Shown here one piece after another: positions 5,342 through 56,165 of a DNA stretch of 64,000 bases; the stretch's first letter is position 1; every line of letters starts with the position of its first letter. This DNA is from Deltaproteobacteria bacterium (GTDB taxonomy: Bacteria; Myxococcota_A; UBA9160; UBA6930): assembly GCA_016875395.1 (NCBI GenBank), contig VGRF01000003.1, positions 1 through 64,000 on the forward strand, read 5' to 3'. A model generated the notes under the pieces. That model did not search any database. It saw only the letters and a program-made list of their open reading frames with translations, and was not told the DNA's origin. Made by a program: the position numbers and the translations under genes.

Positions 5342-5674
5342 TCATTCCACTACGAGGAACGACGCTTCGAGGTCTCCCTCGAACGCCTCGATCTCGGCTC
5401 GTGCGCGCCGAATCAATCGCTCCGCTTCGCGCGTCGAGCAGTTCCCGCGCTTGATCCAAACGACCTTGGGCGGATGACCGAGCGTGAAGCTCAACTGGTG
5501 GAAGTCCGCATCCTTGGAAACGATGACGAGGTGGTTCGAGCGAGCGAACTCCCAGATCTCGATGTCACCGGAGCGCTCAAGCCCGATGTGGCGAACATGC
5601 ATGGAGTCGGGAAACGCATCCGCGAGGCGCGCAACGAGGCGGTGCGACAGGTTGTGATCGATTAGCAGCTTCAC
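5342..5674 (-). CDS. DUF5615 PIN-like protein, probable toxin of a toxin-antitoxin pair
   Basis: The 110-residue protein begins VKLLIDHNLSHRLVARLADA from a GTG at 5674. The opening LLIDHNLS, the central DIEIWEFARSNHLVIVSKDADF and the late WIKRGNCSTREAERLIR match the DUF5615 (Mut7-C-like PIN) family, which is regularly encoded beside DUF433. Acidic residues of the PIN-like fold are visible (Asp6, and the Lys-Asp-Ala-Asp cluster). The GTG overlaps the TGA of the DUF433 gene by 4 bases (GTGA), the usual arrangement for translational coupling in this module. RNase activity is inferred from the fold only. The region has lower GC than its flanks. Confidence 0.85.
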   Translation of the reverse strand: MKLLIDHNLSHRLVARLADAFPDSMHVRHIGLERSGDIEIWEFARSNHLVIVSKDADFHQLSFTLGHPPKVVWIKRGNCSTREAERLIRRARAEIEAFEGDLEASFLVVE

Positions 5675-5898
5675 TTCGCGGAGATCGAGACCAGCCGGCG
5701 CTCGCGATCGGCCGCGAAGGCGAGGCACGCGCGGATGTCATCAGCCGTCAGGTCCGGGAAGTCTTCGAGGATTTCCGCTTCGGTCATTCCCGACGCGAGA
5801 TAATCGAGCACATCGTACACGGTAATGCGCATACCGCGGATGCACGGCTTCCCGCCGCGCTTGCCGGGCTCGATCGTAATGATGCGGCTGTAGTCCAT
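5671..5898 (-). CDS. DUF433 protein, probable antitoxin partner
   Basis: The protein is 75 residues. MDYSRIITIEPGKRGGKPCI, RGMRITVYDVLDYLASGMT and EAEILEDFPDLTADDIRACL are the full DUF433 signature, a small winged-helix/HTH-like fold. AGGAGA lies 6 bases before the ATG. It is the first gene of the pair: its TGA overlaps the GTG of the DUF5615 gene. The arrangement DUF433 then DUF5615 is widespread in bacteria and treated as a type II toxin-antitoxin-like unit. Autoregulation through the HTH-like fold is likely but not shown here. It follows 8 bases after the J-domain gene, so all three could share a transcript. Confidence 0.9.
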   Translation of the reverse strand: MDYSRIITIEPGKRGGKPCIRGMRITVYDVLDYLASGMTEAEILEDFPDLTADDIRACLAFAADRERRLVSISAK

Positions 5899-16431: not shown

Positions 16432-17745
16432 CTATGCCATCGCCTTCTGCGCCTCGAGGTCGCGACCCAGCGTGCGCGACGCGTACCAGTAGTGGATCGC
16501 GCTCCAGCCGGCGCCGACCGCGATCGTCGAGAGCAGCGCCCAGCGCACGGACTCGATGCCGTAGGCGGGCTTCAGCATGTCCGAGAGCCAGCCCACGAAC
16601 TGCGGGCCGAGGCCGAGGCCAATCAGGTTGAGCACGAGCAGCATGATCGCGGCGGCTTGCGCGCGCATGCGCACCGGCACGATCGCCTGCGTCATCGCGA
16701 AGGTGGGGCCGAGGTAGAGGCCGCTCGCGACGGACGAGAAGAGCGAGATGAGCAGCGCGAGCTCGGGACTCGGCGCGAGGTAGACCGCGAACACGACCGG
16801 CACCGTGAGCACGCTGCCGATGCCCGGTACGAGCGGGTAGGAGCGCACGTCCCTCGCGCCGTAGCGGTCGCCGAGCCAGCCGCCGAGGTAGGTGCCGAGC
16901 ACGCCGGTCGTTAGGCCGATCGCGGAGGCGTAGTAGCCGTACTGCAGCGGCTCCATCTGGTGGCTGCGCTCGAAGAAGACGGGGCTGAAGCTCGCGGCGC
17001 CATAGCCGTAGAACGCGTGCAGCGCGCCTGCGAATGCGAGGTGCCAGAACGACGGGAGCTGCGAGAGGAAGCGGAACACGACCGTCAGCGATTCTTGGGG
17101 TCCTTGCTTGCGCGCGCTCGCGCCGCCTTCCCAGTAGCCGCGCGTCGGCTCGGGCAGCGTGAGCAGCACGATCACCGAGAGCACGATCCCTGGGAGGCCG
17201 ACGACGAGCAGCGCCTCCCGCCAGCCGGCGAACTCGCGGACGACGCTGCCGATCAGCACGCCGAGCGCGCCGCCGATCGGGATGCCGAAGGCGTAGGTCG
17301 CGAGGGCGCGCGCGCGGCGCGACGGCTCGTTCATGTCCGAGACGATCGAGTGCGCGGGCGGACTGCAGCCCGCTTCGCCGACGCCGACCATCACGCGCGC
17401 GATCGCGAGGCTGATGAAGCCCGTCGCAACCGCCTGAAGCGCCGTGAAGAGGCTCCAGAACGCGAGCGCCGCGGCGATGATGCGCTTGCGCGGCACACGA
17501 TCGGCGACCCAGGCGATCGGCACGCCGAGGATCGCGTAGAAAATCCCGAACGCGGTGCCGCCGAAGAAGCCGAGCTGCGTGTCGGTGAGGTCGAACTCCT
17601 CGGAGATCGGCTGCAAGAGCACGTTCACGATGTTGCGATCGATGAACGCGAACGTGTAGACGACGATCAGCAGCGCCACGGAGTAGTTCGTGCGGGCGCG
17701 GGAGAACTCGGGCTGCGTCGGGATGGCGGGCGCGGGCGCAGTCAT
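16432..17745 (-). CDS. MFS transporter, Spinster-like family
   Basis: The protein is 437 residues from the ATG at 17745, with about 12 hydrophobic helices. The first helix is VALLIVVYTFAFIDRNIVNV. The MFS loop GVPIAWVADRVPRKRIIAAA and the second signature GVGEAGCSPPAHSIVSDMN (Spinster-like) are clear. A TTG at 17784 is possible but worse. It converges on the DUF35 gene with 8 bases between the two stops. The fragment at 1-263 is a probable paralogue. The substrate is unknown; uptake of an organic acid or terpenoid would fit the catabolic genes nearby, but this is a guess. Confidence 0.9.
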   Translation of the reverse strand: MTAPAPAIPTQPEFSRARTNYSVALLIVVYTFAFIDRNIVNVLLQPISEEFDLTDTQLGFFGGTAFGIFYAILGVPIAWVADRVPRKRIIAAALAFWSLFTALQAVATGFISLAIARVMVGVGEAGCSPPAHSIVSDMNEPSRRARALATYAFGIPIGGALGVLIGSVVREFAGWREALLVVGLPGIVLSVIVLLTLPEPTRGYWEGGASARKQGPQESLTVVFRFLSQLPSFWHLAFAGALHAFYGYGAASFSPVFFERSHQMEPLQYGYYASAIGLTTGVLGTYLGGWLGDRYGARDVRSYPLVPGIGSVLTVPVVFAVYLAPSPELALLISLFSSVASGLYLGPTFAMTQAIVPVRMRAQAAAIMLLVLNLIGLGLGPQFVGWLSDMLKPAYGIESVRWALLSTIAVGAGWSAIHYWYASRTLGRDLEAQKAMA

Positions 17746-17843: not shown

Positions 17844-18014
17844 TCACGGTTGGCGCCGCCGGATCGCGACGCCGACGACGCTCGCGCCGAGCAGGAACAA
17901 CGCGAGCGCCTCTGGCTCGGGGATTGCGGGGATGGATGCCTGAGCCGGCGGGCTCGCGAGCGCCGCGCTCGCCGAAGTGAACACCGCCAGCGCCGCCCAC
18001 CCGAGCCACCGCAT
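17844..18014 (-). CDS. PEP-CTERM micro-protein (signal peptide plus sorting tail only)
   Basis: The protein has 56 residues. Residues 1-20 (MRWLGWAALAVFTSASAALA) are a signal peptide, residues 21-31 are a short spacer (SPPAQASIPAI), and residues 32-56 are a PEP-CTERM tail: the Pro-Glu-Pro motif (IPEPEALALF), a hydrophobic helix and IRRRQP. GGAG lies about 9 bases before the ATG. After cleavage by an exosortase almost no mature protein would remain, so it may be a decoy, a substrate signal or the remnant of a longer gene. The frame can be extended upstream to 18119, but those residues are not signal-like. No exosortase gene is in the window. Confidence 0.75.
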   Translation of the reverse strand: MRWLGWAALAVFTSASAALASPPAQASIPAIPEPEALALFLLGASVVGVAIRRRQP

Positions 18015-18183
18015 CGCCCGCTCCTGCCCCCGCGCGAACCCTACGCGCGCGCGCTCGGCAATCGATGAAGAACCCGTGAATGCCGCCGCTTCGAGGGCTC
18101 GCTTCCGCTGTGGCCTCATTCACACCCCGAGCTCCGCCGCTGTTGGAGTAGGCTCGTTTCGGGGCGCATTCGGAGGAACCGCA

Positions 18184-18729
18184 ATGGGCGTTCACCACTT
18201 GGCGTTCGCGACCAAGGACGTCGAGGCCAACCACCGCTTCTACACGGAGGCGATGGGCTTCGAGCTGGTGAAGGTGGAAGTCGCGCAGATGGGCAAGGGC
18301 TGGGCGAAGCATCTCTTCTACTCGACGGGCTCTGCGCGAGACCAAATGATCGCGTTCTGGGACCTCCACGATCCGTCGCTCGGTGACTGGAGCGCCGACA
18401 TCTCGCGCGGCCAGGGCTTGCCGCCCGGCGTGAACCACCTCGCCTTCTCCGCCGACGGCCTCGACGACCTCGCGCGCCGCAAGGAGCGCTGGCTGGCGCA
18501 CGGCTGCGACGTGATGGAGATCGATCACGACTGGTGCGTGTCCGTGTACACGAACGACCCGAACGGGATCATGGTCGAGTTCTGCACCCTCGTGCGCGAC
18601 TTCACCGCCGCCGATCGCGCCGAGGCTGAAGCGCTGCTGCGAGACCCGGCGCCGACACTGCGCCGCGACCCGAAGTCGATCCAGTTCGTTCGCGCGAAGG
18701 ACTGGGCGGCCAAGCGCAGCGCGGCGTAG
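18184..18729 (+). CDS. VOC-superfamily (glyoxalase/extradiol dioxygenase fold) protein
   Basis: The protein is 181 residues. Its betaalphabetabetabeta modules begin MGVHHLAFATKDVEANHRFY (His4 or His5 as metal ligand) and GVNHLAFSADGLDDLARRKE (second His). NDPNGIMVEFCTLVRDF carries the terminal metal Glu in the usual place. The C-terminal tail is about 30 residues longer than the minimal fold. GGAGGA lies 7 bases before the ATG at 18184. Members include dioxygenases and lyases for small aromatics. The substrate cannot be told. Confidence 0.88.
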   Translation: MGVHHLAFATKDVEANHRFYTEAMGFELVKVEVAQMGKGWAKHLFYSTGSARDQMIAFWDLHDPSLGDWSADISRGQGLPPGVNHLAFSADGLDDLARRKERWLAHGCDVMEIDHDWCVSVYTNDPNGIMVEFCTLVRDFTAADRAEAEALLRDPAPTLRRDPKSIQFVRAKDWAAKRSAA

Positions 18730-54797: not shown

Positions 54798-56165
54798 ATG
54801 CGTGCCGCGTTCCTAATGATCATGCTGGCCCTCGCCCCCGCTGCGCACGGCGGCGAGCGCCCGGCCTTCCGCGATCTGCGCTTCGACGAAGACTGGAGCG
54901 TGCTTGCAGAGCCGAGCTCGCTCGCGAGCCGCGACCGCTTCGACGCCGCGAAGTGGATCGCGCTCGGCGACGGCGCGGCGCTCTCGCTCGGCGGCCAAGC
55001 GCGCGTGCGCTTCGAAGTTTGGGACGGGTACAGCTTCGGCGCGCCCGCGGACGACGACGACGCGCTCTGGCTGACGCGGCTGCGCCTGCACGGCGACCTG
55101 CACGTCGGCGAGCGCTTCCGCGTGTTCGTGGAGGCGAAGGCGGCGTTCACGAGCGAGCCGCGCTCCTTTGGCGGAGTACGCGCGACGGACTCGGACACGA
55201 TCGACCTGCAGAACGGCTTCGTCGAGTGGGAGCAGCCCGTCGCGAGCGGCGCGAAGTGGCGCGCGCGCGTCGGGCGCCAAGAGCTGCGGCTCGGCAAGCA
55301 GCGCCTCGTCTCACCGCTCGATTGGGCAAACGCGCGCCGCACCTTCGACGGCGCGACGCTCGAGTGGCTCGGCGCGCGCACGGACCTCGCCGTGTTCGCC
55401 GTCGCGCCCGTGCGCGTGCGCCCGTACGAGCGCAACGACCACGTCACCGGCCTCGGCTTCTGGGGCGTGCACGCGCGGCGCAGCTTCGAGAACGCCGCGA
55501 TCGCAGACGCTTTTTACTACGGCCTCGCGCGCGAACGCGGCGGCGAAGACGAGCGCCGGCACACGCTCGGCGCGCGTGGCTCGCTCGCGATCGCGGGCAC
55601 ACGCTTCGACGTCGAAGGCGAAGCCGCCTACCAGTTCGGCTCGCTCGGAAGCGCGGACATCTCCGCGGGGATGCTCGCGGCGCAGCTCGGCTATTGGGTG
55701 CAGGGCCTGCGCACGTCACCGCGCTTCTTCGTCGGCTTCGACTGGGCGAGCGGCGACGCGCGCGCGGACTGCGACATCGCCACGTTCGACCAACTCTTCC
55801 CGCTCGGACACGCCTACTTCGGAGTCGCGGATCTGGTCGCGCGCCAGAACGTGATCGCCGCGAGCGCCGGCGTCTCTCTGCGCCCACTGCCCGCACTCGT
55901 GACCGAGCTCGCGGTGCATCATTTTCGCCGCGCAGGCCGAGGCGCTGGCCTCGCGAGCGCGGGCGGCGCGCCGCTGCGCGCGCCAGCGCCGGGGGCGTCG
56001 CGCGAAATCGGCGAAGAGATCGACCTCACCGCCGTCTACCGCCTCGGCCCGCACACGCAGCTCGGCGGCGGCTACGCGCACTTCTTCGCCGGCCACTTCC
56101 TGCGCGACACCGGCGCGCATCGCGATGTCGACTTCTTCTACCTGTTCGCGCAGCTCACGTTCTGA
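54798..56165 (+). CDS. Alginate-export-type outer membrane porin
   Basis: The protein is 455 residues from the ATG at 54798 (GGAG 8 bases upstream). A signal peptide (AAFLMIMLALAPAAHGGERP) precedes a beta-barrel: SLGGQARVRFEVWDGYSFGA, LWLTRLRLHGDLHVGERFRV, FVEAKAAFTSEPRSFGG, IDLQNGFVEWEQPVASGAKW and RQELRLGKQRLVSPLDWANA. These and the last-strand HRDVDFFYLFAQLTF (terminal Phe) fit the Alginate_exp family. Its substrate is not necessarily alginate. No neighbouring polymer genes are seen. The ATG at 54768 is a longer alternative. Confidence 0.85.
   Translation: MRAAFLMIMLALAPAAHGGERPAFRDLRFDEDWSVLAEPSSLASRDRFDAAKWIALGDGAALSLGGQARVRFEVWDGYSFGAPADDDDALWLTRLRLHGDLHVGERFRVFVEAKAAFTSEPRSFGGVRATDSDTIDLQNGFVEWEQPVASGAKWRARVGRQELRLGKQRLVSPLDWANARRTFDGATLEWLGARTDLAVFAVAPVRVRPYERNDHVTGLGFWGVHARRSFENAAIADAFYYGLARERGGEDERRHTLGARGSLAIAGTRFDVEGEAAYQFGSLGSADISAGMLAAQLGYWVQGLRTSPRFFVGFDWASGDARADCDIATFDQLFPLGHAYFGVADLVARQNVIAASAGVSLRPLPALVTELAVHHFRRAGRGAGLASAGGAPLRAPAPGASREIGEEIDLTAVYRLGPHTQLGGGYAHFFAGHFLRDTGAHRDVDFFYLFAQLTF

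Follow-up and report, generated by a model that had tools for sequence, protein, structure and literature searches.

What can a predicted secreted protein be for if it consists of little more than a signal peptide and a sorting tail? This question is raised by a 56-codon gene in the 64,000-nucleotide stretch analysed here, positions 1 to 64,000 of contig VGRF01000003.1 (hereafter the window), from the deltaproteobacterial assembly GCA_016875395.1. This genome is designated G000; other G-numbers denote the genomes compared, and L-numbers denote the loci read. The first-pass annotation, made from the sequence alone, had placed a 56-residue PEP-CTERM protein at 17844-18014 without stating the strand; these coordinates are exact, and the gene lies on the minus strand. 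Its product, MRWLGWAALAVFTSASAALASPPAQASIPAIPEPEALALFLLGASVVGVAIRRRQP, scores above the cut-offs of both PF07589 (27.4 bits, cut-off 20.7, residues 30-54) and TIGR02595 (23.7 bits, cut-off 16). It ranks third (E-value 1.5e-5) among the PF07589 matches in all six frames of the genome. The layout of the tail fits that of PEP-CTERM proteins, with a PEP motif, a hydrophobic helix and a basic cluster at the C-terminus. The N-terminus, read by eye, contains a basic residue, a hydrophobic stretch and an A-X-A motif. Between the signal-like region and the PEP tail lies a spacer of only 11 residues, which agrees with the earlier proposal that sorting would leave almost nothing of the product. We consider it probable that the gene encodes a genuine, selected and minimal PEP-CTERM protein and exosortase substrate; proteins of this short form are called minis below.

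The reading frame carries the marks of a coding sequence. The G+C content by codon position is 0.73/0.62/0.89, and the coding score of this frame is the best of the six, as judged with a home-made scorer that left the strand ambiguous in a few loci. A profile of 14 other minis gives 47.4 bits on the window mini, compared with at most 12.5 bits in 2000 shuffles, and the score is 48.0 bits (shuffles at most 12.1) when the two syntenic relatives are left out of the profile. An upstream ATG would extend the protein to 91 residues. This start is less likely, as the AGGAG sequence precedes the 56-residue start and the signal-like regions of the relatives fit the short form. A scan of the locus for promoters and terminators yielded nothing useful. 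Common gene finders accept 90-nt genes, and the earlier remark that the gene is below the usual gene-calling size was overstated.

Relatives were sought with the window protein in 117 genomes. In two of them, G004 and G009, mini orthologues of 72 and 74 aa lie between the same MFS transporter and VOC genes. In both, the mini shares its strand with the MFS orthologue, which lies approximately 100 nt 3´ of it, and is oriented divergently to the VOC orthologue; the mini-to-MFS distance is 98-115 nt across the three genomes. The orthologues share the short form that the first-pass annotation had proposed to look for, and the longer versions that would have pointed to a deletion in the window were not encountered in G004 or G009. 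With two genera of the family sharing it, the short form is not a local deletion. Selection acts on the tail in relatives. Between the G003 and G008 minis, the tail has 0 nonsynonymous changes at 49.8 sites versus 6 synonymous changes at 22.2 sites; the nonsynonymous (dN) and synonymous (dS) divergences are 0.15 and 0.46 for the whole gene, and 0.24 and 0.55 outside the tail. The G004 and G009 tails differ with a pN of 0.15 and a pS of 0.72 (the corresponding uncorrected proportions).

These data bear on the reading that the frame is spurious or a remnant of a longer PEP-CTERM gene. The product has only 56 residues, and the 5´ part of the 91-aa frame has no counterpart in the short forms of the relatives, as might be expected of a remnant. 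However, short orthologues with the same two flanking genes show that the frame did not arise by chance or by deletion, and the ribosome-binding-like site, the codon-position pattern and the purifying selection in relatives oppose this reading as well. It is largely refuted and scarcely credible to us: synteny, selection and the shuffles rule out a chance open reading frame or a deletion remnant.

The mini of the window belongs to a wider class. An alignment of 15 minis (56-86 aa) has just five invariant columns, P, E, P, F and G. The profile of these minis, run on 285 genomes, matches at E-value ≤ 0.001 in 75 of them, mostly in the tails of longer proteins. Strong matches (58 bits or more) of near full length number 16 and occur in 12 of the 285 genomes: one each in G000, G004, G007, G009, G021, G022, G052 and G060, and two each in G003, G008, G011 and G013. 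Weaker matches include further proteins of approximately 65-90 aa, for example in G020, G070, G007, G071 and G060. The 12 residues before the PEP motif contain a mean of 3 prolines in 16 minis versus 0.4 in 15 long PEP-CTERM proteins of G000. The spacer can also take another form: a 76-aa mini in G007 (L229:6334-6564, contig C2) has a Ser-Asp repeat spacer and is convergent with an AcrB-type pump gene.

Several observations weigh against a selected exosortase substrate. The spacers of the minis diverge rapidly, as though their sequence mattered little. The invariance of the PEP motif is partly built in, since the minis were collected with a PEP-tail query. Positional support for minis comes only from G004 and G009, and a VOC protein 69% identical to that of the window is encoded at L147 with neither MFS nor mini in the stretch read, which counts against a fixed block. 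In favour of such a substrate, all 11 strong-mini genomes other than G000 have an exosortase over the PF09721 cut-off (82 of the 117 genomes do), and the three other family members without one (G001, G002 and G005) have no mini match, but this co-occurrence is a raw genome count that ignores relatedness. Finally, no intact exosortase was found in G000: TIGR02602, PF09721, TIGR04178 and a profile of 12 exosortases from the same family are all without a match, although the completeness of the genome is listed as 96.26%.

The last point was clarified by the gene neighbourhood of the enzyme in relatives. A single exosortase match exceeds the cut-off in each of G004 and G009, and the gene follows a conserved 361-aa gene, directly or with one glycosyltransferase-like gene between. 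The 361-aa gene is present in G000 at contig C6:735-1814 and points to the contig end. Behind it (L104:1-357) lies a 79-residue frame that matches the N-terminus of the relatives' exosortases (39% over 57 residues; 35% over 65 residues) and scores 45.8 bits with an exosortase profile, compared with at most 9.6 bits in 2000 shuffles. This frame ends at the edge of a multicopy element. Nine other sites repeat the first 115 bases of C6 at 99-100%, and three more do so at 81-82%. The near-identical copies, ten in all, stop at one common base, beyond which their sequences differ, apparently at contig breaks. The element at the start of C6 reads RPHSSLGNLTPAEFAAR, which we take to be the end of an IS3-type transposase. 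Because the frame stops at the end of the multicopy element, the exosortase gene is interrupted in the assembly and its catalytic part is missing; an IS3-like element appears to have interrupted it after approximately 79 codons. The first-pass annotation had made its proposal depend on an exosortase in the genome. Family models and the 12-sequence profile detect no such enzyme, whereas its N-terminal codons are present at a contig end, and plain absence of the gene was rejected on this ground. The rest of the gene may sit on a contig that was not binned. With the gene interrupted in this way, the mini protein probably accumulates uncut in G000.

Other potential substrates are plentiful in this genome. 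PF07589 has 25 matches in G000, 12 of them over the cut-off; 20 were read as C-terminal tails, and the remaining 5 (all ≤13.7 bits) were not. Together with three tails from other searches, G000 has 23 PEP-CTERM-like tails, that is, 22 besides the window mini. If the break in the exosortase gene is true, G000 may be a natural knock-out with approximately 22 other PEP-CTERM-like tails. At L245:2453-2681 (contig C16), two overlapping PEP-CTERM tails lie on opposite strands within inverted repeats (73-nt arms, 86%), with no full gene seen; this is perhaps an assembly or duplication oddity.

The first-pass annotation had suggested a titrating substrate or a signal for an exosortase. Hardly anything besides the recognition tail remains in the mini, and an exosortase is present in all 11 other strong-mini genomes, which speaks for such a role. 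Against this, the 13 exosortase loci of family f1 that were fetched contain no mini-type PEP-CTERM open reading frame, which leaves an exosortase-linked control gene unsupported. In G003, G008, G011 and G013, the two strong minis of each genome differ in gene context, and the same type of neighbour, described below, recurs across three families. Titration or signalling is therefore very unlikely in our judgement.

The conserved MFS neighbour raises a different alternative, in which the mini acts as a small membrane-bound partner or regulator of a neighbouring polytopic protein (the MFS transporter here and an N-acyltransferase-like protein elsewhere) and the PEP tail is only an anchor. The constant position of the mini upstream of the MFS gene in three genomes is consistent with this, as is L080, in which another mini precedes an MFS gene by 93 nt, this MFS giving no blastp match to the former at 1e-8; MFS is thus the immediate downstream gene of four strong minis (three syntenic and L080). 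This reading also accounts for persistence without an intact exosortase. However, a mini is present at 3 of the 30 MFS homologue loci read and lacking at the other 27, which weakens an obligate MFS partnership; 2 of these 27 have a long PEP-CTERM gene. Those two are L340 (G072) and L344 (G041), where the MFS homologue adjoins long PEP-CTERM frames of 246 and 265 aa, respectively. Among the best 80 of 162 relatives in a VOC-gene scan of named genomes, only L146, which is the G004 locus, has both MFS and mini. An invariant Pro-Glu-Pro would be needless for a plain anchor, and other minis adjoin unrelated soluble-enzyme genes; minis also occur near phosphotransferase-like, PilZ or enoyl-CoA hydratase genes.

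A second membrane protein recurs beside the minis. A gene resembling apolipoprotein N-acyltransferase (Lnt) directly adjoins 6 of the 16 strong minis (G003:C453, G011:C508, G013:C202, G022:C54, G052:C240 and G060:C254). A seventh link is deduced for G008:C374, as this contig ends at the mini where the Lnt-like gene would follow and the gene starts on C359, 86% identical to that of G003. With six links shown and one deduced, 7 of the 16 strong minis adjoin an Lnt-like membrane enzyme, which again suits a membrane partnership; taking both sides together, we regard such a partnership as rather unlikely. In family f1 the mini precedes the Lnt gene on a single strand; the pairs of f10 and f4 are convergent. 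The seven mini-linked Lnt genes do not give an unbiased rate, since all but one of them came to light through their minis. At least one Lnt-like gene is present in 77 of 79 genomes, with several copies in many. None of 60 further Lnt loci chosen regardless of minis (including the G008 gene) has a mini in its flanks; a long PEP-CTERM frame is close by in two. The grouping of the mini-linked enzymes depends on a quick tree of 66 Lnt proteins, which unites all seven with two others in a nine-member group (support 98); those two (G070 and G071) have no mini near. The loci of the mini-linked sub-clade are L071, L072, L074, L226, L079, L084 and L283, from three families. When aligned with a solved Lnt, the positions equivalent to the E, K and C residues, which we take to be catalytic, are invariant in the nine-protein group. 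The window mini has no adjacent Lnt gene, and of the three LNT_N matches in G000, the two sampled are both outside the mini-linked sub-clade.

How a minimal exosortase substrate would mature can be set out in outline. The mini would be exported by Sec, and signal peptidase would remove approximately 20 residues, leaving approximately 36 residues as an inner-membrane stub, the N-terminus facing outwards and the Arg cluster inwards. An exosortase cut at the PEP motif would then yield a proline-rich peptide of about 11-14 residues, either attached to a carrier or released. Expression, signal cleavage, processing and the fate of the peptide are what we infer for this protein. Selection would act on the signal peptide, the tail and the short proline-rich stub and not on a folded domain, which makes a peptide, bound to the surface or released, the most fitting view of the product. 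A peptide-like product, which the first-pass annotation had also mentioned, is a more interesting reading than titration or signalling in view of the N-acyltransferase paralogue that accompanies a sub-set of minis. Extending this, minis might be precursors of short proline-rich peptides with exosortase as the maturation protease, a sub-set being acylated by a dedicated Lnt paralogue into a ribosomally encoded lipopeptide and the window copy, next to MFS, representing an unacylated or otherwise exported branch; we regard this scheme as a long shot. The Lnt pairing of the sister minis is the most interesting lead, although it is not directly applicable to the window copy.

Features of the mini locus in the window
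Feature	Coordinates	Strand	Details and evidence
Mini PEP-CTERM gene	17844..18014	minus	56 codons and stop, ATG at 18014
Shine-Dalgarno-like AGGAG	18021..18025	minus	6 nt 5´ of the ATG of the mini
Signal-peptide-like region, residues 1-20	17955..18014	minus	putative cleavage after A-L-A, placed by eye; matching position in relatives
Proline-rich spacer SPPAQASIPAI, 11 residues (21-31)	17922..17954	minus	sequence; proline enrichment before PEP in minis
PEP motif, residues 32-34	17913..17921	minus	invariant in 15 aligned minis
Hydrophobic stretch of sorting tail, residues 35-51	17862..17912	minus	sequence, PF07589
Basic C-terminus RRRQP, residues 52-56	17847..17861	minus	sequence, PF07589
MFS transporter, next gene downstream of the mini	16432..17745	minus	98-nt gap; neighbour conserved in two relatives
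VOC/glyoxalase-family gene, divergent from the mini	18184..18729	plus	neighbour conserved in two relatives

Two further loci were observed elsewhere in the window. At 5342-5898 on the minus strand, DUF433 and DUF5615 (PIN-like) genes overlap, presumably as a toxin-antitoxin-like pair. At 54816-56165 on the plus strand, an alginate-export-type outer membrane protein (PF13372) is encoded, in a genome with many PEP-CTERM tails.

With a substrate that has hardly any body, the part that an exosortase recognises can be told apart from its cargo. As minimal substrates provided by nature, the minis are short enough for peptide mass spectrometry of the cut site and the attached moiety, a question left open in the consulted parts of PMC1569441, PMC12188702 and PMC11980579, and the recurrent pairing with an Lnt paralogue names a concrete candidate enzyme. 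The same parts of these three papers describe neither an ultra-short PEP-CTERM form nor a link to Lnt. A literature search, with most subscription literature outside its reach, found nothing that joins exosortase with a microprotein or with apolipoprotein N-acyltransferase.

Compared with known PEP-CTERM proteins (PF07589/TIGR02595; PMC1569441, in the sections consulted), the mini shares the signal-like N-terminus, the PEP motif, the hydrophobic helix and the basic cluster near the C-terminus, as well as the occurrence of several copies per genome in an exosortase-rich lineage. Those sections (Haft et al. 2006) treat the tail as a C-terminal module of diverse proteins and do not mention a minimal form; the window mini differs in that no domain lies between its signal and tail, where the spacer occupies 11 residues. 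Its presumed processing enzyme is an exosortase of the XrtA/EpsH-like type (PF09721), of which only approximately 79 N-terminal codons, ending at the IS3-like element, are found in the G000 assembly. The enzymes adjacent to minis resemble Lnt in matching PF20154 and PF00795 and in keeping the invariant E, K and C positions, but as a sub-clade they are separate from the remaining Lnt paralogues sampled. The seven Lnt-linked minis have no cysteine, and they are not ordinary Lnt substrates because no cysteine follows the signal peptide. The window mini likewise has no Cys in its 56 residues and so no mature N-terminal lipoprotein cysteine. According to the consulted part of PMC11980579, exosortases appear to leave their substrates anchored, perhaps with a new moiety at the C-terminal region. 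The MYXO-CTERM/myxosortase system, as presented there, shares with the mini a three-part C-terminal tag that is cut by a membrane protease; its motif has an invariant cysteine, in contrast to the cysteine-free tail of the window mini.
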